DNA from: Salinicola endophyticus | GTDB taxonomy: Bacteria; Pseudomonadota; Gammaproteobacteria; Pseudomonadales; Halomonadaceae | NCBI RefSeq assembly: GCF_040536835.1 | Contig: NZ_CP159578.1 | Location: 4,255,188 to 4,319,187 of the forward strand | Length of the DNA: 64,000 nt | Reading direction: 5' to 3' | Shown here: in pieces, positions 15,068 through 24,662 of the stretch | Layout of the letters: each line of letters begins with the position of its first letter | Position numbering within the stretch: the first letter of the stretch is position 1 | Made by a program: the position numbers and the translations under genes | The notes under the pieces: generated by a model | The model's database searches: none | Told to the model about the DNA's origin: nothing | The model's input: only the letters and a program-made list of their open reading frames with translations

Positions 15068-15967
15068 ATGGCAATGCCGAAGCACGTCAGTATCGTCGAA
15101 GTCGGCCCGCGCGACGGGCTACAGAACGAAGCCGAGCCCATCGCCACCGCCGCCAAGCTGGAACTGATCGAGCGGCTCGGTGCGGCGGGGCTCAAGCGGA
15201 TCGAAGTGGCGAGTTTCGTCTCGCCCAAATGGGTGCCGCAGATGGCGGATCACCGCGAGGTGATGACCGGCATTCGCCGCCGGCCGGGCGTGGTCTACTC
15301 CGCGCTCACGCCCAATCTCAAAGGGCTGGAAGCCGCGCTGGAGTGCGGCGTCGAGGAGGTCGCCGTCTTCGCGGCGGCCAGCGAAGCCTTCTCGCACAAG
15401 AACATCAACTGCTCGATTGCCGAATCGCTGGCGCGCTTCGAACCGGTGATCGAACGCGCCCGGGAAGCCGGCGTGCGCGTGCGCGGCTATGTCTCCTGCG
15501 TGCTCGGCTGCCCCTACGAAGGCAACATCGCCCCCCAACGGGTCGCCGAGGTCTCTCGGGCGCTTTATCAGATGGGCTGTTATGAAATCTCGCTGGGCGA
15601 CACCATCGGCGTCGGCACCCCGCTCGCGGCCAAGCGCCTGCTCGACGCCGTGAGCCGGGATATCCCCAGGGACAAACTCGCCGCCCACTTCCACGACACC
15701 TACGGCCAGGCGCTGGCCAACCTCTACGCCGTGCTCGAAGAGGGCATCAGCGTGATCGACAGCGCCGTCGCCGGACTCGGCGGCTGCCCCTACGCCAAGG
15801 GCGCCACCGGCAACGTTGCCACGGAAGACGTGATCTACCTGCTCAACGGCCTCGGCATCGACAGTGGCGTGGATCTGGATAACTTGGCAGAGACAGGGGT
15901 GTGGATAACACAGACGATCGGCAAGCCGAATCGGTCGAGGGTCGGCGTAGCGCTGGCGGCGCGCTAG
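15068..15967 (+). CDS. liuE: Hydroxymethylglutaryl-CoA lyase
   Basis: A 299-residue HMG-CoA lyase with TIM-barrel signature motifs: VGPRDGLQNE near the N terminus, SLGDTIGVGTP in the middle, HFHDTYGQALAN for metal binding, and the C-terminal active-site loop GLGGCPYAKGATGN holding the reactive cysteine. It splits HMG-CoA into acetyl-CoA and acetoacetate, the last step of leucine catabolism. It starts 1 bp after the liuD stop. The stop codon overlaps the left end of repeat R4. Confidence 0.95.
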   Translation: MAMPKHVSIVEVGPRDGLQNEAEPIATAAKLELIERLGAAGLKRIEVASFVSPKWVPQMADHREVMTGIRRRPGVVYSALTPNLKGLEAALECGVEEVAVFAAASEAFSHKNINCSIAESLARFEPVIERAREAGVRVRGYVSCVLGCPYEGNIAPQRVAEVSRALYQMGCYEISLGDTIGVGTPLAAKRLLDAVSRDIPRDKLAAHFHDTYGQALANLYAVLEEGISVIDSAVAGLGGCPYAKGATGNVATEDVIYLLNGLGIDSGVDLDNLAETGVWITQTIGKPNRSRVGVALAAR

Positions 15968-16109
15968 GGTTTGTACGAAAAGTCATCGAGCGAAGGCAAG
16001 ACAAGGCAAAAATCGGCGAAAACGCGGAGTTTACGGGGTGTAAATGAGCATTTTGAGCCGATTTTTAACGCCGTATTGCCGAGCGCAGGTAGTTTTCGTA
16101 AAAAGCCTG
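15965..16109. repeat. Dispersed palindromic repeat copy R4
   Basis: A 145-bp element beginning at the liuE stop codon. The left end tagggtttgtacgaaaagt and right end agttttcgtaaaaagcct are inverted relatives. The interior holds aaaaatcggcgaaaa and gagccgattttt arms around a gtttacggggtgtaaat centre. It is the most canonical copy and separates the liu operon from the region that ends in the accessory island. Confidence 0.85.
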
Positions 16110-16121
16110 GTCATTCATGGA

Positions 16122-16676
16122 TCAACCGCTCCAGGCCCCGCGATCTAGCTGAGACTGCAGCGCTAGAGACAACTCGACATAGGTGCGTGCCGCCTCTTTC
16201 GCCGGTTCCAGATCGCGAGCCACCTCACGACGCAAACGCCGCAGCTCGTGATACAACGTCACCTGTGGCTGATCGATCAGCCCTTCCCGCACCAGTAGTT
16301 CCGGCAGCCGAGCCGCTGATATCTCGCCCGGGCCACTATCTTCGCTTTCCCGTGGCGATAGCGACGCTCGGGCCGCGCGCTCCAATCGAGTCCACGCCTC
16401 CAATATCGCCGTACGGGGATGGCGCTCGGCCAGCTCGGTGAGAAACGTCTCCTCCTCACCGCCACGCACACCGACGACGTTATCCCGACCTGGCGATAGC
16501 GAGCGCAACTGCTCAAGGTCGTGCTCGAACTCAGCCTCGATAGGCCCGGCCCGCAGCTTCTTGATGAAGGACCCAAACTGCAGGATCTGGTCGCGGAAGA
16601 GAAGCGCGAGAATCAGAGCGAACACCGGCCAGGCCAGCGACCGGACGAGGCTCGAAATGAACGTCAGCCAATCCAT
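16122..16676 (-). CDS. Membrane-anchored protein of unknown function
   Basis: A 184-residue protein with one strong N-terminal membrane helix (about residues 8-29, LVRSLAWPVFALILALLF). A soluble, charged, probably helical tail of ~150 residues follows. I do not recognise a named family with certainty. The tail has an acidic stretch ending in a helix rich in Arg and Glu (RRLRREVARDLEPAKEAA). Base composition is closer to the core genome than to the cassettes that follow, so it may be the last native gene before the island. The start at 16676 begins immediately with the membrane helix. Confidence 0.72.
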   Translation of the reverse strand: MDWLTFISSLVRSLAWPVFALILALLFRDQILQFGSFIKKLRAGPIEAEFEHDLEQLRSLSPGRDNVVGVRGGEEETFLTELAERHPRTAILEAWTRLERAARASLSPRESEDSGPGEISAARLPELLVREGLIDQPQVTLYHELRRLRREVARDLEPAKEAARTYVELSLALQSQLDRGAWSG

Positions 16677-16728
16677 CGTCAGTACTCGGTTGGTTCCACG
16701 TGCATGAGTCTAGGCACTAGCTGCCACG

Positions 16729-17115
16729 TCATACATTCACCGAATATTGTAGATCACGTGCTTCATCTCCGGTCATGCCACGAAATCCCCAGCAGTGAGC
16801 GGGCTGCTCCTTGAGCGTGATCTCGATATCGATGGGCGATATGCCGATCTCGGCTTCTATCTGGCGGAAAAGCGCCTTGATTAGCGCCTTTTGTGTCTCC
16901 TTGGACCGCCCCTGCATCATGTTGATTTCGATAACCGTGTAAGCCGACGTTCTATCGTCAGGGAAATAGAAATCCTCTGAGTCCAGCGGTACGAACCGTT
17001 GAGCTCGCTTGCCCGCCGGCATCCCGAGAACATCCTGCATGCAGCCATGAATGACATTCGAAAGCTGCGCCTTGATAGGATTCAAGTACTCTTTGATGCC
17101 ATAAACGACGACCAT
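16729..17115 (-). CDS. Tautomerase-superfamily protein lacking Pro-1
   Basis: A 128-residue protein of two fused tautomerase (4-oxalocrotonate tautomerase/MIF fold) halves. The second half is clearest: YTVIEINMMQGRSKETQKAL and then EITLKEQPAHCWGFRGM. Tautomerases normally use the amino-terminal proline exposed after Met removal, but here the protein starts MVVVYG, with valine in that place. The start at 17115 is supported by a gggggctc ribosome binding site; the longer frame from 17166 lacks one. It is probably the last gene of the cassette-like array. The reaction is unknown. Confidence 0.78.
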   Translation of the reverse strand: MVVVYGIKEYLNPIKAQLSNVIHGCMQDVLGMPAGKRAQRFVPLDSEDFYFPDDRTSAYTVIEINMMQGRSKETQKALIKALFRQIEAEIGISPIDIEITLKEQPAHCWGFRGMTGDEARDLQYSVNV

Positions 17116-17183
17116 GTGAGCCCCCAAAGAATGTGTGTTTAATAAATCGACCTGCAAATATATCAATTAGTAGAACCACTGAC

Positions 17184-17255
17184 GAGCTAACATTTTGCAC
17201 AGCGGCGCGAGGAACGAGCGTCTGGCGCCGCAGGCGTGAACTGATGCAACTAGCT
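17184..17255. repeat. attC-like imperfect palindrome 1
   Basis: Outer arms agctaacattttgca and tgatgcaactagct are complementary with a small bulge. Inner arms gcggcgc (17202-17208) and gcgccgc (17225-17231) are perfect complements. The stop codon of the upstream membrane-protein gene lies in the outer arm, as is usual for integron cassettes. The core triplets are degenerate, so it is a candidate only. Confidence 0.5.
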
Positions 17256-17640
17256 ATGCATTTACAACGCCCTGGACAAATAAGCACGCTCCTATTCCGT
17301 AAGCTATAATTTGCAGCCAAAAGCAGCCCCACGTGACCGAACCACAACATTTAGCCATGAGAGCATTAAAGCAACCTCCATCTTTGATCTTCCTCGCGGT
17401 GTATCGATAGTCAATGAGCCGCGATACGGTAGCAACACAACCAAGCCCTGCCGAAACTGACCAAACAATAATCACACAATTCAGAGGCAATGCCTGCTGA
17501 GCAACTTTTCCCAACTTTATATTTATAGCATAGGCTAGTGATGCAACAGCGAATCCAAGAAACAAGTTGATTGAAAATGACAATTGGGTAATGCGATAGT
17601 TTTGCCACCGTATGTACCGCTCTTTCTGATCTTGATCCAT
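17254..17640 (-). CDS. Small integral membrane protein of unknown function
   Basis: A 128-residue, AT-rich orphan gene. Hydropathy suggests four membrane segments (SINLFLGFAVASLAYAI, CVIIVWSVSAGLGCVAT, a weak one, and WLQIIAYGIGACLFVQG) with a charged N terminus (DQDQKERYIRWQNYR). The start at 17640 has an aggaag ribosome binding site; an upstream in-frame ATG at 17655 overlaps the attC-like core and is less likely. Similar small membrane proteins are common integron cassette cargo. No function can be assigned. Confidence 0.7.
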   Translation of the reverse strand: MDQDQKERYIRWQNYRITQLSFSINLFLGFAVASLAYAINIKLGKVAQQALPLNCVIIVWSVSAGLGCVATVSRLIDYRYTARKIKDGGCFNALMAKCCGSVTWGCFWLQIIAYGIGACLFVQGVVNA

Positions 17641-17653
17641 GGGCTTCCTATTC

Positions 17654-17690
17654 ATAACGCCGCATTCACCGGCTTGACCGGCATAATGCT
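17654..17690. repeat. attC-like hairpin 2 (short)
   Basis: A cataacgcc core at 17654 is followed by gcattcaccgg-cttga-ccggcataatgc (17663-17690), an imperfect hairpin. The stop codon of the acetyltransferase gene falls inside it. It is shorter than a typical attC and may be degraded. Confidence 0.42.
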
Positions 17691-18409
17691 TTATTATGCA
17701 CCTTATCTATATAGAAGGCACCTGAATTATAGGCCACCCCTATTGCACTTGCTTCGGAGTACTTTGCCTTATCAAAATAAACAGACTCACCATCTACGCA
17801 TATTTTAATCATCGCATCGCCTTTATAATTTTCGCTCCTGACGTAGGCCGCCACCCGATTTTGGAAATGTATTACTCCTTGATTATCTAGCACAGCAGTC
17901 GGAGAAAAGGACTTTATCGGTACTGTTTCGGATATCCATTTTGCTTGCTCTGGATAAAACATTATCTTTACGTTTACCGGCGAGCCGTCAGTAGGAACAT
18001 CCAGGTACTTTTCAAAAACAAATGACGCTTCATTGTTATTATGAAATTCGAACCCCATTTTTTTCCAAAAAGGAATGGACGATTCGGGTTTACACTCGAT
18101 GGAAACAGCAATTCTGCCACTGCTAATGGCACGTTGCATTGCATATTCTACTAGCTGCTTTCCAACGCCCTTCTTTCTAAGATCTTCACGAACCTCCAGT
18201 ATGCCAAAATCGCCCCAGATGTAGGCGACCGGCTCATCCTCGAGAGTGGCCACGAAAAGCTGATGTTCGTCATGAACGCGCTGCGTTAAATTCCAATTGC
18301 ATAAAAATGATCCATACACCTCCCGGCGATCATGCTCTAAAAGCCATGAATATATTGTTGCGACATCATGGTCAGTAGCCAATCCAAATGACAAATTTGA
18401 TTCTCTCAT
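17666..18409 (-). CDS. GNAT-family acetyltransferase with extra C-terminal domain
   Basis: A 247-residue protein. Residues ~5-140 form a GNAT N-acetyltransferase domain with a V-x-x-x-x-R-x-x-G-x-G acetyl-CoA loop (VREDLRKKGVGKQLVEYAM) and a terminal FWKKMGFEF. Residues ~145-247 form a second, unrecognised segment containing IKICVDGESVYFDKAKYSEA. Codon use is AT-rich, unlike the flanking core genes. The start at 18409 has a gaggg ribosome binding site. It lies between two attC-like sites, so it looks like a cassette. Substrate unknown. Confidence 0.78.
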   Translation of the reverse strand: MRESNLSFGLATDHDVATIYSWLLEHDRREVYGSFLCNWNLTQRVHDEHQLFVATLEDEPVAYIWGDFGILEVREDLRKKGVGKQLVEYAMQRAISSGRIAVSIECKPESSIPFWKKMGFEFHNNNEASFVFEKYLDVPTDGSPVNVKIMFYPEQAKWISETVPIKSFSPTAVLDNQGVIHFQNRVAAYVRSENYKGDAMIKICVDGESVYFDKAKYSEASAIGVAYNSGAFYIDKVHNKALCRSSR

Positions 18410-18440
18410 CTTCAGCCCTCGATGGTTCTGACATACACTG

Positions 18441-18505
18441 CATAACGCCCGTGGTAATGGGTACCAACGGAGCGCAGCGTAGTTGGCGTCCCGTTGACCA
18501 CTTTG
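18441..18505. repeat. attC-like imperfect palindrome 3
   Basis: A cataacgcc core opens the site. Arms gtggtaatgggtaccaac (18451-18468) and gttggcgtcccgttgaccac (18482-18501) pair over about 15 positions with extra unpaired bases on one side. This asymmetry is a hallmark of attC recombination sites. It follows the region of the broken DUF5677 gene and precedes the acetyltransferase. Confidence 0.6.
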
Positions 18506-18511
18506 CTACTG

Positions 18512-18527
18512 AGAGCCTTCGGGCTCT
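18512..18527 (+). terminator. Hairpin with TTCG loop followed by T-rich tract
   Basis: A perfect 6-bp stem (agagcc/ggctct) with a ttcg tetraloop is followed on the plus strand by attttaattg. It would terminate plus-strand transcription, opposite to the cassette genes. It may insulate the array, or be part of a degenerate attC tail. Confidence 0.4.
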
Positions 18528-18578
18528 ATTTTAATTGTTGCCTCAAAGTCCCGGAACGCTTGCCGAGTTGCAGAAGCA

Positions 18579-19325
18579 TCAGAGATCACGCCAAGTTAAT
18601 GAAGCAGCTCCACATTGCGAACCATTACTTTTACAGCGAGGATAGCCATTAAAGATGCTGAATTTTTCAAGTCGTTCCGGATTTGGGTAACTCGCTTGAA
18701 AAATCGCGCGCAAAACAGCTACTGGTGCTCCATGAGCATGCATAGACGCCAGATGGTAGACCAATGTATATTCATATTCTCAAGGCTCACCAAGCTCAGT
18801 CGCCCTATCGTGAATCCTGGCCACTGCGAAATTGCCATACGACCGATTACACCCCCTTTTATCTTGATATCTGAAACGTTCTTGAAAACGCTTGGTAGCC
18901 TTATCGAAGTCGTCAATCTGGTGGCTGGCATCTGCTTTACTGAGTAACTTCCGGCATTCCATGACCGTATAGTTGCAGAAATCCCTTGACCGTTTTTCAG
19001 CGTCTATTCCGACGCCATGAAGATTGAGTGATACCTCCCAGAGTTGGCGCACGACAGCGGCTGCCGCTTCATGATAAAACTGAGGCAGAAGAAAGCTGAT
19101 TGCTTTGTAAAAATTAAAAGCATAGATAAAAGATTGATTGACCAGAAGATCAGGCAAATCTTCGGGCACAATGTGCTCTGTGGTAGCGATAGCATCTCGA
19201 ATAATCGCATAGTGCTCCAGGATCCGGTCCAAGGGCAGCTCCACAGAAATTTTTGGACTCCCTATAAACAGCGTTTCTTCCAAAGACATTGCCCGACCTA
19301 CCTTCTCAGTAATGCCTGCCGTCAC
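18579..19325 (-). pseudogene. DUF5677-like helical protein interrupted by an in-frame stop
   Basis: An upstream frame of up to 181 codons (start at 19325, or 19289 with a gaaggtagg ribosome binding site) ends at a TGA at 18780-18782. Reading on in the same frame gives a further 66 residues beginning EYEYTLVYHLASMHAHGAP and ending at 18579. Both halves look like one DUF5677-type all-helical protein: the first contains AAAAVVRQLWEVSLNLHGVG and the second the characteristic xHA/Gxx helix end. The simplest reading is a nonsense mutation that removed the C terminus. The function of DUF5677 proteins is unknown. A functional truncated protein cannot be excluded. Confidence 0.6.
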
Positions 19326-19357
19326 CGAAGGAAAAACTGAAGAGAAGCGCTGATATT

Positions 19358-19387
19358 GGCATCAGGTGTACGGCCTGGTTATATGTT
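19358..19387. repeat. Half attC-like sequence 4
   Basis: The string tggcatcaggtgtacggcc followed by tggttatatgtt closely matches the sequence at 20914-20947 (tggcatctgatgcatggcc, then tggttaattatgtt). Each abuts the stop codon of the upstream reading frame. They appear to be the same type of recombination-site end, with the opposite half eroded. Confidence 0.42.
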
Positions 19388-19528
19388 CTATCGGTCATCA
19401 CCGGACTCACTTTCATCTATTTTTTCGACCAAGCCCTGTAGCTCTTTAGCAACATCACCACAACCTCGGATAGTAATTCGGTGTCCTTTATAGTCAACCG
19501 TGATCTCTTTCTGAGGGCGAGTCTTGAG
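19388..19528 (-). pseudogene. Fragment of an unknown small protein
   Basis: An open frame of 46 codons ends at TAG 19388-19390 and reads KTRPQKEITVDYKGHRITIR and then GCGDVAKELQGLVEKI, with good coding character. It has no ATG/GTG/TTG start. It opens after an in-frame TAA at 19529-19531; upstream of that TAA the same frame continues as CGHHFCRIPSKHCAPLIIE. A gene broken by a nonsense change or 5' truncation is likely. It would have been missed as too short and start-less. Confidence 0.42.
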
Positions 19529-19556
19529 TTATTCGATTATCAGTGGGGCGCAATGT

Positions 19557-19799
19557 TTAGAAGGAATCCGGCAAAAGTGATGGCCGCAGGTATAAAAACC
19601 CCAAGATCAAGTCACTGGCAATCTGAGCGGAAGAGCTATTAGCACGAAATCCCGAGGTCATGAGTTTTGACTTTTTCTCATCATGAAATTCGCACTCGTG
19701 CATCAGTTGATTGACAACTTCTGCTTGCCCCTTTTCATCGGTTAGCTTCCATCGATCAACGTCATACAGCGAGACCGCAAATCTGTTCTCCATGGCCAT
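19557..19799 (-). CDS. Small cassette-encoded protein of unknown function
   Basis: An 80-residue orphan protein starting MAMENRFAVSLYDVDRW, with a hydrophobic C-terminal stretch (ASDLILGFLYLRP). The start lies 10 bp after the attC-like site at 19809-19892, the typical spacing of integron cassettes, with a gagtgagaa ribosome binding site. Its 3' end overlaps the alternative frame noted for the adjacent fragment, so the C terminus may have been altered by a frameshift. No family recognised. Confidence 0.5.
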   Translation of the reverse strand: MAMENRFAVSLYDVDRWKLTDEKGQAEVVNQLMHECEFHDEKKSKLMTSGFRANSSSAQIASDLILGFLYLRPSLLPDSF

Positions 19800-19808
19800 T
19801 TCTCACTC

Positions 19809-19892
19809 ATATAACGCTTGCAGCATGCGCGCCCATGAAATGGAGCCGGAGGCGCAATGTAATGGACGTCACCGTGCATGCACTGGTTAGGC
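19809..19892. repeat. attC-like recombination site 5 (best example)
   Basis: An 84-bp site opens with tataacgcttgcagcatgcgcg and closes with gtgcatgcactggttaggc. The arms are complementary around a gcatgc core with unequal unpaired bases. The gttaggc end is an exact GTTRRRY core and overlaps the TAA stop of the gene at 19887-20225. The left half is related to site 6 (taacgc, then gcagcatgcgcg, then ggcgca...atg...gacgtc). Confidence 0.7.
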
Positions 19893-20225
19893 AAACCCAG
19901 GCTCATTGAAGACACGAAAGCGATAAACATGCACAGGCCCTTGAGTCTTTCCACCCCAGAGGAGCAAGCCACCGATTTTCTGATTAGGTGATACAAAAGA
20001 CCCTAGTTTCTCATTAATATCCTTTGCCAAGTCCAAATACTCTTCAGCAGTTAATGCGACAGCATCTTGGCCAGGCAAAGATAGCATTAGAAGCTCTTTG
20101 TTCTGACGAGAGTAGGCCAACGCTGACGGGGGGGAATTGCCCCACTCAAAAACTTCATATCTCCCAGCCTCGGATCTACCAAGGCCATCCCTTAAAGCAT
20201 GCTTTATTTCGTCGATTAAATCCAC
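19887..20225 (-). CDS. Cassette-encoded protein of unknown function
   Basis: A 112-residue protein with an intact frame, GTG start at 20225 and an excellent ggaggactc ribosome binding site. It contains a helix-rich N terminus (DLIDEIKHALRDGLG) and two beta-rich segments (RYEVFEWGNSPPSALAYSR; IGGLLLWGGKTQGPVHVYRF). The gene is bounded on both sides by attC-like palindromes, and its stop codon lies within site 5, which is the standard layout of an integron cassette. I do not recognise a family. Confidence 0.66.
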   Translation of the reverse strand: MDLIDEIKHALRDGLGRSEAGRYEVFEWGNSPPSALAYSRQNKELLMLSLPGQDAVALTAEEYLDLAKDINEKLGSFVSPNQKIGGLLLWGGKTQGPVHVYRFRVFNEPGFA

Positions 20226-20240
20226 GAGTCCTCCATCATT

Positions 20241-20336
20241 TTGCCTAACGCCCGCAGCATGCGCGACTTTATAATAAGGCGCAGCCGCAATGGAAAAGAC
20301 GTCGCCATGTCAGCGATTTTTAGCGACTTGGTTCAC
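20241..20336. repeat. attC-like recombination site 6
   Basis: A gcctaacgcccgcagcatgcgcgac half and a gacgtcgccatgtcagcgat half pair through gca-catg-cgac steps. The gcctaac end is a perfect inverse core (RYYYAAC). The opposite core is degenerate (ggttcac). The stop codon of the 20320-20928 gene lies inside the site. Length is about 95 bp, near the upper part of the usual attC range. Confidence 0.62.
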
Positions 20337-20928
20337 GCCACACATTTGGCATGCGTTTCCCCGCTAGCCAATCCTCGTAGGAAAGCATTCGCTCCCATGA
20401 CTCTTCATTACTCATTCTGACAATATTCCTGTCATTTTCATCTTGCTGCTTCGCGAACAGCCGCGATCTCTGAGTAAAGCCTTTCCTGATTTTTATCGGT
20501 CGATCTTCATACTCTTTTGAAGCATTAGAATCTGGTAAGAAGAGCACCTTTTTCTCACCATCTGTATTGAAGGTTGGATCGATTAGAGCGCCGTCTTTCT
20601 TCCAAATGACGTGGCGCTCGGCTTCAATATATTTGTTTTTCTTATACCAAATTTTATAGCCAATAACTTTCTTCCCTCCATCTTTCTCAATAAGTCGACC
20701 CACATTCATTTCGCAGCAACTTTGCCGGCACCATGGCTCAGGGTGAACTTCAACATATACCGGAGTCTCACTGCTCAGGCTCCTACAAAATGAAGCTACT
20801 TTCTGGTCTATTGATTCAGGTGTAGTAAGAGATTTTCCATCAAGTTGCACGAAGCTATTCCTCTCGCTAACGCTGCCATCACCGGTGACAAAACCAGCAC
20901 GAAACAGAGGTTTTGGCATCTGATGCAT
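20320..20928 (-). CDS. Putative Cys-His-Asp hydrolase-like cassette protein
   Basis: About 202 residues from an ATG at 20928; a TTG at 20961 would overlap the preceding gene and lacks a ribosome binding site, and an ATG at 20919 is also possible. The middle has the ordered pattern HPEPWCRQSCCEMNVGRLI, then KKVIGYKIWYKK, EAERHVIWKKDG and LIDPTF. The same spacing of Cys, conserved IW, H and D occurs in a widespread family of small hypothetical proteins and resembles a papain/transglutaminase-like triad. The catalytic idea is inference. The gene is AT-rich and lies between attC-like sites. Confidence 0.6.
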   Translation of the reverse strand: MHQMPKPLFRAGFVTGDGSVSERNSFVQLDGKSLTTPESIDQKVASFCRSLSSETPVYVEVHPEPWCRQSCCEMNVGRLIEKDGGKKVIGYKIWYKKNKYIEAERHVIWKKDGALIDPTFNTDGEKKVLFLPDSNASKEYEDRPIKIRKGFTQRSRLFAKQQDENDRNIVRMSNEESWERMLSYEDWLAGKRMPNVWREPSR

Positions 20929-20947
20929 GGCCTGGTTAATTATGTTC
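20914..20947. repeat. Half attC-like sequence 7
   Basis: This is the near copy of the sequence at 19358-19387. It contains cctggttaattatg, whose tta is the stop codon of the NYN gene. It lacks a clear partner arm because the next gene starts within about 12 bp. Confidence 0.4.
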
Positions 20948-21732
20948 GTTTTTGATGACAAGGATTACAACACGGTTGCGCTCTTGTAGGAATAGGAGCT
21001 GGGCGCGAGAACACCTTGTTGCAATGTACGCATGAATAGACGTTACACCCTTCCAATATCTCTTCCGCTTTTCGCTCTAAGAAGAACGGCTCAATAGAAT
21101 AATCAAAATCTGCAAGTGCGTAGGATGTTTGCCTTGATTCTGACTTAAGTTGATCCGGATGAGTTGTTGCAACAAAAACATTATTTGAATATTCAGGATA
21201 CGCAACCCTGATTGCAGGGAGTATGTCAGCATCACCGGTGATGATTACATGTACATTCTCTGGTTGCGTGATAGCCGACTTCACAAGCAAAGCAACAACG
21301 GTGGTGTCTACTTGTTTTTCCTGAAATTTATGTCCTTTGAGATTCTCAATCATCCAGCCCTTCAGCCGAGGACGGAAGATAGCATCCTCAAGAAAACCGG
21401 CATCGATAGCCCTTTGGGTGAAGACATCCCTTGCTCCGGTGCTTCTCCGAACATTATCGATATCGGCGGGTGAGATATTGTCGCGCTCATTTGGCCATTC
21501 GTCTAAGTCATCGGGAAGATCAAAAATGCTGGTAGAAAAAAAGAGATTCCCGAGCTCTGCACACCCGCCTTCCGCATGTTTATTTGCATGCTTCAGCATG
21601 CGAGTCGACAAGCTTTTTAAAATCAAGTTTGAACAAACGGTCCGGGTATTCGAGCCGGTATGCTAGCGCCCTCTCTGGGGCACAAGCCTTAAAAAGCCAT
21701 GATCCATCTACAAATACGTTTAATTTTGACAA
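20940..21732 (-). pseudogene. NYN/PIN-like nuclease with C-terminal zinc ribbon, frameshifted
   Basis: The N-terminal part starts at a TTG (21730-21732) after a strong aaaaggag ribosome binding site and reads LSKLNVFVDGSWLFKAC, with the NYN-domain aspartate. It ends at a stop near 21580. The downstream frame, shifted by one base, continues as MLKHANKHAEGGCAEL and carries DTTVVALLVKSAIT, VHVIITGDADILPAI (the second acidic NYN motif) and a C-terminal CVHC...CCNPC zinc ribbon. The two frames overlap around 21590-21612, where one inserted or lost base would restore a ~265-residue protein. NYN proteins are RNases. A sequencing error is possible. Confidence 0.68.
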
Positions 21733-21744
21733 AACATACTCCTT

Positions 21745-22134
21745 TTCAATTAACAGGTGTCAGATAGCCCGCTCGCTTTGCAACTTGAAAAAGCTCACAC
21801 GTTTTGCTCGCTCCGATATAACTGTGCATAGACACAGTCGTGTGGCGTTGGGTCGTCCGGTTAGCTATTGAGGAAGGCCGCCACGCTACCGCCAGCCATG
21901 GAGGATGACGATGGTTACCATCATCCCAGCGCGGCTGTCCCTTGTGAGCTTGTGACGCTGTAAGCCATCTCTTGTGCTGTTCTACGCACAGTAACCAAGC
22001 ATTACATTAGAGACAACGCCACGAAAGGATTAATCAATCGTGGCGTCAGAGGGAGAGGCGCTGGTGCGTTGGAAACCGAAGATTATTTAGGAGACGGGGG
22101 CACTTTACGCTTGGCATAACGAGAGCGGCCAGGT
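21745..22134. other. Non-coding stretch between island and liuR
   Basis: No credible gene is seen in 390 bp. Composition is intermediate. A tataac...ggttagct pair at ~21818-21863 could be a decayed attC or attI end, but the arms do not pair convincingly. An integron integrase would be expected on this side, divergent from the cassettes, and is absent. A perfect dyad lies at 22016-22046. Confidence 0.6.
22016..22046. promoter_or_regulatory. Perfect 9-bp dyad with palindromic centre
   Basis: The arms acgccacga (22016-22024) and tcgtggcgt (22038-22046) are exact complements. The 13-bp spacer contains the palindrome gattaatc. The nested symmetry suggests a protein-binding operator or a small hairpin. 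It lies ~90 bp from the end of liuR, in a non-coding gap. Confidence 0.5.
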
Positions 22135-22539
22135 TCAAGAACGCTCGGATGCCTTCAATTCACCTAGTGCACTCTGGCACCGCGCTTCGACCTGATCGAG
22201 TTCGCGCTGCATGGCGCGGATGTCTTCCAGCTGGCGTTCGAGGTTGGCGCGCTTGTCGGCGAGGATTTCGAGCATGCGTTCGAGCTGGCGCACGCTGCCG
22301 TGGTTGCGGTCGTCGTAGAGATCGAGCACTTCGCGTATCTCGATCAACGAGAAGCCGAGCCGTTTGCCACGCAGGGCGAGTTTGAGGCGCACGCGGTCCT
22401 TGTCGCGGTAGACGCGGGTCTTGCCCCGGCGCTCGGGGGAGAGCAGGCCTTCCTGCTCGTAGAAGCGGATGGTGCGGGTGGTAACGTCGAACTGCTGCGC
22501 GAGTTCGCCAATGGCGTAGGTTGGGCCGGACACGGGCAT
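22135..22539 (-). CDS. liuR: MerR-family regulator of leucine catabolism
   Basis: A 134-residue MerR-type activator/repressor. The N-terminal winged helix reads YAIGELAQQFDVTTRTIRFY and is followed by EQEGLLSPERRG. The C terminus is a dimerising coiled coil (ERMLEILADKRANLERQLED). It closely resembles LiuR, which senses branched-chain acyl-CoA catabolism and binds palindromes such as ttgacgttaacgtcaa. A variant of this box (22575-22590) lies 36 bp upstream of the start, implying autoregulation. The liu operon it should control ends at 15967, so the gene has been separated from its targets by the accessory island. Confidence 0.85.
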   Translation of the reverse strand: MPVSGPTYAIGELAQQFDVTTRTIRFYEQEGLLSPERRGKTRVYRDKDRVRLKLALRGKRLGFSLIEIREVLDLYDDRNHGSVRQLERMLEILADKRANLERQLEDIRAMQRELDQVEARCQSALGELKASERS

Positions 22540-22574
22540 TGCCTGTTGTTAACTTTTCTTCACCCTACCGGGAT

Positions 22575-22590
22575 TTGACCTTAACGTGAA
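22575..22590. promoter_or_regulatory. LiuR-type operator before liuR
   Basis: The 16-mer ttgaccttaacgtgaa keeps the ttga.cttaacgt.aa skeleton of the perfect box at 9067-9082 with two changes. Its position just upstream of liuR suggests autoregulation. Confidence 0.68.
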
Positions 22591-22641
22591 GATCAACCAA
22601 GGCAGGGTGTGCCGCCGGTGTTTCTAGCGGGGGGATACCAC

Positions 22642-24516: not shown

Positions 24517-24662
24517 TTAGGCACTGTCTGAAAAGTACTGCGCTCGCCCATGCGGTGTTAAAAATCGGCTCAGAATGCTCATTTACACCCTGTAAACTCC
24601 GCGTTTTCGCCGCTTTTTGCCTTGCCTGGCCTTCGCTCGTCGACTTTTCAAACAGCACCTAG
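24517..24662. repeat. Dispersed palindromic repeat copy R5 (inverted orientation)
   Basis: A 146-bp element starting ttaggcactgtctgaaaagt and ending with its near-complement acttttcaaacagcacctagg. It is the mirror image of the copy at 8886-9031 but keeps the ctcatttacaccctgtaaactccg centre that R2 has lost. It lies between pdxY and mltA, divergently read genes. Confidence 0.85.

Follow-up and report, generated by a model that had tools for sequence, protein, structure and literature searches.

A cassette array without an integrase in Salinicola endophyticus, a probable remnant of an ancestral chromosomal integron beside the HMG-CoA lyase gene

A row of small genes in the genome of Salinicola endophyticus raises the question of what kind of element it forms and from where it descends. 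The stretch of DNA analyzed, called the window here, comprises 64,000 nucleotides of the sole contig of this 4.32-Mb genome. Eight small genes, a tautomerase gene included, lie in it between positions 16729 and 21732, all on the minus strand, and this segment has a G+C content of 46.2%, compared with 67.9% for the remainder of the window. An initial annotation had described AT-rich genes pointing the same way, separated by imperfect palindromes in the manner of a CALIN, a cluster of attC sites lacking an integron-integrase. This description held up and could be refined: the array is very probably what is left, stranded, of a sedentary chromosomal integron of ancestral origin that was fixed beside the lyase gene, lost its integrase, kept part of its attI and is now static and decaying.

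Since no Rfam family matched in the window at the gathering thresholds, an attC covariance model was built from 34 training sites, all from loci with an integrase in other genera of the family; these were picked by a motif scan, which biases the model towards canonical sites. Seven attC matches were obtained between 17185 and 20941, on the minus strand and one in each gap between neighboring genes, where the palindromes had been noted; the initial annotation had set fewer than two as the limit below which its reading fails. The seven sites cluster within 3.8 kb in one orientation, each on the 3′ side of a cassette gene, leaving out only the tautomerase gene, on whose 3′ side the model found no attC. 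Counted from the attI end, both core boxes are kept in attC 1 (20865-20941, 41.8 bits, AAC and GTT present) and in attC 3 (19809-19892), the best at 45.1 bits. The R″ box is damaged in attC 2 (20243-20325, 27.4 bits), attC 5 (18440-18511, 21.3 bits), attC 6 (17652-17699, 19.4 bits) and attC 7 (17185-17259), the weakest at 14.2 bits, and the R′ box in attC 4 (19308-19384, 18.1 bits). The RYYYAAC/GTTRRRY-like ends said to overlap stop codons were thus confirmed in part: stop codons overlap the R″ box in the genes designated tm133, p112, p213 and NYN, whereas AAC and GTT are both kept in only two of the seven sites.

With the default filters no further attC was detected in the window up to E = 10. 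With the filters off, the model picked up six more matches beyond the array, of which the best is partial and scores 16.4 bits; therefore, six of the seven array sites exceed all background and the weakest does not. That weakest site adjoins the tautomerase gene, and attC of 29 to 40 bits occupy this place in four relatives (L099, L100, L101, and L102). The array could be imagined as ordinary small genes with chance palindromes and no integron at all, as the weakest site lies below background and the folding energies are mostly no better than those of shuffled sequences (bottom-strand folding was clearly better in one of the seven, z = −2.2, plain DNA folding energy not being diagnostic). However, this is scarcely credible: six sites exceed all background of the 64 kb, they share one strand and lie in the gaps between genes, and to this come the attI homology and the synteny with intI-bearing loci presented below. 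Scans for promoters and terminators in the array were not above shuffles, and so no cassette promoter is claimed. Because a genome-wide attC search, which scored 150 of 1736 candidates, missed three of the seven window sites and one near 3.246 Mb, the numbers of attC given for sequence beyond the window are minimum values.

The genes carried by the array, all on the minus strand, were then compared with known families. Cassette 1 (20940-21732), which adjoins attI, encodes an NYN-type protein and is frameshifted, being split into frames of 50 and 228 aa where the closest relative has 263 aa. The protein of cassette 2 (20320-20850; 176 aa, with the start taken from its closest relative, which it matches at full length) belongs to a family of unknown function for which a profile search gave no relative in the PDB. 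No family match was obtained for cassette 3 (19887-20225, 112 aa) or the cassette 4 ORF (19557-19799, 80 aa), and none over the cut-off for cassette 7 (17254-17655, 133 aa). Cassette 5 (18509-19325) is a broken DUF5677 gene, whose open frame stops at 18780 while 261-aa relatives match as far as 18509, across the stop and a change of frame. Cassette 6 (17666-18409) codes for a 247-aa GNAT acetyltransferase, and the distal end of the array is formed by the Tautomerase_2 gene (16729-17166). As the initial annotation had stated, no resistance gene was found: none of nine proteins passed an NCBIfam resistance-family cut-off, and the GNAT protein reached 20.7 bits against the AAC(6′) family, with a cut-off of 140. 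An anti-phage defence cargo of the PADLOC HEC-09 type was also considered and rejected, the NYN gene being broken and the match (20.8 bits, E = 6e-5) confined to one of its pieces. None of the 28 plasmid records that matched 16001-22500 covered 80% of it, and the 15 listed covered 4% or less. With two genes broken and the rest in widespread families or without a family match, the suggestion that an undescribed system might lie here found no support.

The flanks of the array point to its origin. On the left stands an HMG-CoA lyase-type gene (15068-15967, plus strand), presumably liuE, followed by a gene for a 184-aa protein without a Pfam match (16122-16676, minus strand), present in nine of the 11 same-genus relatives that span the site and partial in one of those nine. 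At the right end an attI relic was recognized (21751-21830, minus strand), with a core at 21751-21765 that has two mismatches. About 100 bp are missing after this core relative to loci L102, L103, and L110, and the attI block can be aligned to the sequence that precedes intI in L125, L131, and L134. The position where intI starts in intact loci is taken by a conserved block with no listed ORF of its own (21831-22139), beyond which a regulator gene (22135-22539, minus strand), which we take to be of the MerR family, serves by synteny as the right anchor. To the right of attI, a scar about 50 bases long was examined as a degenerate intI start and discarded, as the likeness is too short.

The search for an integrase elsewhere in the genome, as proposed beforehand, gave no match over the TIGR02249 cut-off, and the genome does not present the functional intI of a complete sedentary chromosomal integron. 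Using intI proteins in tblastn, no convincing relic was found inside the window, the best match (E = 0.60) lying outside the array. The same absence of intI over the cut-off was observed in 17 of 18 same-genus genomes, this one included, and none of the 12 that span the lyase site (the window and 11 relatives) has intI there. In G003, a 19-codon intI relic, a short 5′ piece, is found at the site (tblastn, E = 0.001-0.009). A weaker tblastn match (E = 0.02) was seen in L106.

Outside the genus, the integrase-bearing integrons of related genera were found to occupy this very place too, in the same orientation and downstream of the HMG-CoA lyase gene, and this gene is the common anchor of the same-genus arrays and of the intI-bearing loci. 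At least 12 of 67 intI-matching genomes, 10 in one genus and one each in two others, have intI on the same contig and strand as the lyase gene, 2-40 kb farther on; in at least eight further intI genomes, among the matches listed, both genes are on one contig and far apart. In L131 and L134 the attC sites start some 65 bp past the lyase gene and run up to intI, ending immediately ahead of it; a single 6.6-kb stretch in L131 is free of attC matches. Moreover, a record named uncultured Halomonas (L021) has, besides the lyase gene and two attC, an attI core and the beginning of intI. The lyase-linked array thus occupies a fixed chromosomal site across species. To the right of intI, the three intI-bearing genomes examined for this, L143-L145, gave no match to MerR, DUF72 or a kinase; as the right flank is not common to the intI loci, the deletion cannot be reconstructed as one excision with known boundaries, which counts against the remnant reading.

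The array of the window is now decaying. Because the motif-picked training set favors canonical sites, its attC were compared only with 58 non-training attC of intI loci (99 matches minus 34 training sites and seven matches in the same-genus loci L150 and L151). AAC or GTT is damaged in five of seven window sites against 10 of the 58 (Fisher p = 0.006), predicted R box pairing is lower (p = 0.002), and so are the bit scores (p = 0.04); the two broken genes, DUF5677 and NYN, add to the picture. The attC of the relatives did not differ significantly from those of the intI loci in bits (p = 0.65), boxes (p = 0.41) or R pairing (median 0.17 versus 0.45, p = 0.14), an observation that counts against the remnant reading.

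The history of the cassettes was followed in the same-genus relatives, with one genome per species, leaving out of the counts the contig-end loci L109 and L111; G006, G009, G014, and G016 have no lyase match. All 11 spanning relatives carry attC at the site, one to five found in each, and the 31 sites share the array orientation without exception, three of them with E above 0.01. The initial annotation had regarded a gene order universal in the genus as an argument against its reading, and across the 12 arrays the order is not universal. The cassette-sized pieces in common are limited to the distal tautomerase gene, present in six genomes, a distal gene that a second pair has in common, and a single gene common to a third pair. 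This far-end tautomerase is the only window gene common to relatives (five of the 11), and the other window cassettes are at the site in none of them. Each species has its own attI-proximal cassettes, which would be odd after a single loss of intI before the species split.

Three accounts of this turnover were weighed. One long ancestral array may have lost intI and kept a different piece in each species; the arrays are short, the most widespread cassette is the distal one, and the lyase-to-intI distance of up to 40 kb in other genera would allow for such length. However, random survival should leave some proximal overlap with the relatives and none was seen, so that this differential loss is held as a possibility with some reserve. 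With a comparable degree of doubt, homologous recombination in the conserved flanks may have moved whole arrays from one species to another. The flanks are indeed mosaic: the window is 95-96% identical to G005 and G010 in the lyase gene and 80-81% in the DUF72 gene, in which identity is 98% between these two and 94-95% between them and G007 and G002, genomes that are more distant in the lyase gene. The right boundary, additionally, has insertions and partial MerR gene copies in several relatives. Yet the 98% segment of G005 and G010 stops short of the array, and the non-coding block adjoining it is only 88% identical.

The third account, which we consider unlikely, attributes the turnover to an integrase acting in trans, for example from another chromosomal locus or a passing element, after the resident intI was lost. 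The pieces common to the 12 arrays lie distal or mid-array and never beside attI, as insertion at attI predicts; the likeness of the relatives' attC to those of intI loci is in line with it, and intI relics or an almost complete intI occur at other loci in G000, G006, G009, and G014. Against it stand the 17 of 18 genomes without intI over the cut-off, the damage to the window's own attC and attI, and the fact that differential loss or exchange could yield the same picture. No flank match was found between the relic at 3.25 Mb and the intI loci of G006, G009, and G014. A bolder form, in which the lyase site is an integrase-free capture platform whose attI-proximal cassettes were replaced in every species in trans, appears rather improbable; if true, CALINs could be living platforms and not debris alone.

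The reading of the array as a stranded remnant would involve the following events. An ancestral sedentary integron was presumably fixed downstream of the lyase gene in Halomonadaceae, and its integrase would have built the array by inserting cassettes at attI, all in one orientation, with each folded attC bottom strand recombining with attI, a chemistry that is established integron knowledge. Later, intI would have been deleted from the site in the genus of the window, leaving behind seven cassettes, the distal tautomerase gene and a truncated attI, which are probably immobile at present.

The array adds a new case to a known class of genome relics and does not represent a new system. Mobile resistance integrons of the class 1 type have the same attC architecture and cassette orientation; the array differs from them in being chromosomal, without intI, conserved in position across species, and in having no resistance gene over a family cut-off. 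By the IntegronFinder definition, clusters of at least two attC without integrase are CALINs, proposed to be degraded integrons with fewer cassettes (available text of PMC9024848), and the array agrees with this class in both respects. Unlike in CALINs generally, which are common and usually taken as debris of unknown parentage, a parent can be traced here through the site, a piece of attI, the integrase relic of one species in the same genus and the intI that other genera keep at the site. For Halomonadaceae, a CALIN of Halomonas sulfidaeris strain SST4 is listed in a table whose available text does not describe its site (PMC10295459). No description of the lyase site was found in the open-access papers searched, most subscription papers falling outside this scope: in the text available, the integron matches for the family in PMC3606827 and PMC5015195 were only a cited title or an unrelated word, and the halophile integron paper PMC7923331 did not mention "Halomonas". 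The closest parallel, as far as the available text of PMC12444791 goes, is given by the ilvD-linked sedentary integrons of Xanthomonas, which are ancestral, sit at one fixed gene and have lost intI in several species, their arrays being left as CALINs with many single-strain cassettes. Both cases share a fixed ancestral chromosomal site, the loss of intI and the CALINs left behind. They differ in family and in anchor, here the HMG-CoA lyase gene, and also in that some Xanthomonas species, according to the same text, keep intI at the site versus none of the 12 spanning genomes in the present genus. The Halomonadaceae lyase site therefore offers, besides Xanthomonas ilvD, a second natural series for following the fate of cassettes after integrase loss.

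The window is the final 64 kb of a single contig of 4,319,187 bases, and between 16729 and 21732 it carries eight small genes, all on the minus strand, with a G+C content of 46.2% against 67.9% in the remaining window; the small, AT-rich, co-oriented genes of the initial annotation were thus recovered. To their left lies an HMG-CoA lyase-type gene (hereafter the lyase gene), whose closest named records are from Halomonas (83%). Mutually related repeats of about 120–140 bases were observed at 15977–16097 and 24524–24661, as well as in several relatives, and the first of them also matches Pseudomonas and Halomonas plasmid records.

The attC covariance-model search proposed in the initial annotation, with fewer than two sites as its refuting limit, was run and seven sites were found. 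The model was built with canonical R and L stems from an alignment of 34 canonical attC sites, picked by motif scan from 15 integrase-bearing loci of the family, none of the 34 coming from the genus of the window. With default filters, all seven matches (17185–20941) were on the minus strand, and no further match was detected elsewhere in the window up to E = 10. With filters off, six of the seven scored at least 18 bits and the remaining one 14.2 bits; the top match outside the array, over the whole window, was partial and reached 16.4 bits. The 14.2-bit site adjoins the tautomerase gene, a position at which attC sites scoring 29 to 40 bits are present in four relatives (L099, L100, L101, and L102). 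A specificity check on 80 named lyase loci (1.55 Mb) yielded 24 matches (E up to 1). Six loci accounted for 20 of these, in clusters of two to five; the four singles (L019, L020, L021, and L023) scored 17.6 to 38.2 bits.

Among the array proteins, Tautomerase_2 and a GNAT acetyltransferase were over the Pfam cut-off. DUF5677 was just under it (23.8 bits vs. 27.1), and relatives of that protein do carry this domain. The match to NYN was weak, and among the 120 of 293 relatives listed some are named NYN or LabA/DUF88. The 176-aa protein of cassette 2 falls in a family that Pfam does not name; 69 relatives were found, including some in Xanthomonas, Shewanella, Pantoea, and Lonsdalea; in 28 aligned members one Cys and one His are invariant and one Asp nearly so, and no solved structure was found among the relatives. 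No resistance family was over cut-off among the array proteins, in line with the absence of resistance genes noted previously, and the defence families gave a single match below E = 0.01, a weak one on one piece of the broken NYN gene.

The lack of an integrase was also borne out, since nothing was over the TIGR02249 cut-off across the whole genome. Elsewhere, an N-terminal fragment of the integrase gene (intI) with two stops was detected, at C1:3250349–3250639, about 1.0 Mb away from the array; 4.3 kb from it lies one attC site, oriented as it would be in an integron. An attC-like site of 33.9 bits stands alone at C1:2928545–2928627, with no neighboring attC reported by a search that scored part of its candidates. 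Both are relics separate from the array. The former (C1:3245953–3250639 in the same genome, G000; L112:4954–9640) is a second integron relic, which comprises the intI fragment, a putative insertion-sequence-like gene and the attC site, and is flanked by a putative HIT-like gene and, on the other side, by a large gene pair.

Seventeen same-genus relatives were available for comparison. Thirteen stretches were fetched, and two that run into contig ends (L109 and L111) were left out. All 11 remaining relatives carry attC sites in the interval from the lyase gene to attI; there are 31 of them, three with E above 0.01, and every one has the array orientation. Across the 12 arrays compared, the cassette-size piece common to the window and five relatives was the tautomerase gene, distal (at the lyase-gene end); two further genes recur at this size, a distal one in L104 and L105 and another in L106 and L108. 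Smaller matches had the size of attC or attI, except for 118 and 161 bp that L108 shares with L107 and L106. The other window cassettes have no relative in any of the 11 loci, and the gene order is therefore not genus-wide. The lyase gene had no match in three genomes of the genus (G014, G009, and G006; stretches L142, L148, L150, and L151), which carry intI at another shared locus, almost complete and in two pieces in G014 and as fragments in G009 and G006; the tautomerase gene, at 75% identity, is also present at the G006 locus.

The probable parent site of the array is seen in other genera: of 67 intI-matching genomes, at least 12 have intI on the same strand as the lyase gene and 2–40 kb past it (both searches took in 250 genomes each, and the count is a lower bound), and at least eight further genomes have both genes on one contig, far apart. 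In L131 and L134, attC sites begin about 65 bp past the lyase gene and stop just before intI, with one 6.6-kb stretch without match within the run of L131. In L125, L131, and L134, the sequence preceding intI can be aligned with the right end of arrays from the window genus. In the window, the attI core is kept at 21751–21765 with two mismatches, and about 100 bp present in L102, L103, and L110 are missing. At the attI point of G003 (L107), 57 bases (19 codons) resemble the intI start (79% identity, E about 0.002). In L021, a named record of an uncultured Halomonas, a span of 3.1 kb holds the lyase gene, a pair of attC sites, the attI core, and a match to intI residues 1–133.

The window array looks less well kept than those of its neighbors, because most of its attC sites are damaged and two of its genes are broken, while the sites of the relatives show no significant difference from those of intI loci. 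Core boxes without AAC or GTT were found in 5/7 window sites vs. 10/58 non-training intI-locus sites (p = 0.006), and predicted R-box pairing (p = 0.002) and bit scores (p = 0.04) were also lower than in these 58. The 31 sites of the relatives were not significantly different from the same 58 in bits (p = 0.65), boxes (p = 0.41) or R pairing, the median of which was lower in the relatives (p = 0.14). A frameshift splits the NYN gene (cassette 1), and in the DUF5677 gene (cassette 5) there are one stop and one frame change; their closest relatives (263 and 261 aa, respectively) are intact.

A single loss of the integrase would call for an explanation of why the proximal cassettes, next to attI, have been completely replaced in each species. 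This may lie in differential loss, starting from a long ancestral array, or in an integrase acting in trans. It may also lie in an exchange of arrays through the flanks, which are clearly mosaic: the identity of G005 and G010 to the window is 95–96% in the lyase gene vs. 80–81% in the DUF72 gene of the right flank. Partial second copies of the MerR-type regulator gene lie by the right flank in the window (22030–22600) and in relatives, where a boundary of flank identity falls, and L103 has an insertion of about 5 kb beside this flank. In L099, L100, L104, L105, L106, L108, and L110, the lyase gene has its 3′ end duplicated, with the second copy lying between this gene and the array after 0.7–3.8 kb of other DNA, which resembles the mark of a site-specific insertion into a gene end; in L125, from another genus, the second copy comes directly after the first.

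With seven attC sites and no integrase over cut-off in the genome, the array fits the CALIN class proposed for it, as IntegronFinder uses the term: at least two attC sites, in what are proposed to be degraded integrons (PMC9024848). The hope of an undescribed system was not sustained; the array is a further example of this known genome feature and offers no new mechanism, its value lying rather in the natural series to which it belongs. For another Halomonas, a published table already lists a CALIN (PMC10295459), and the window array repeats the story of the Xanthomonas ilvD case (PMC12444791).
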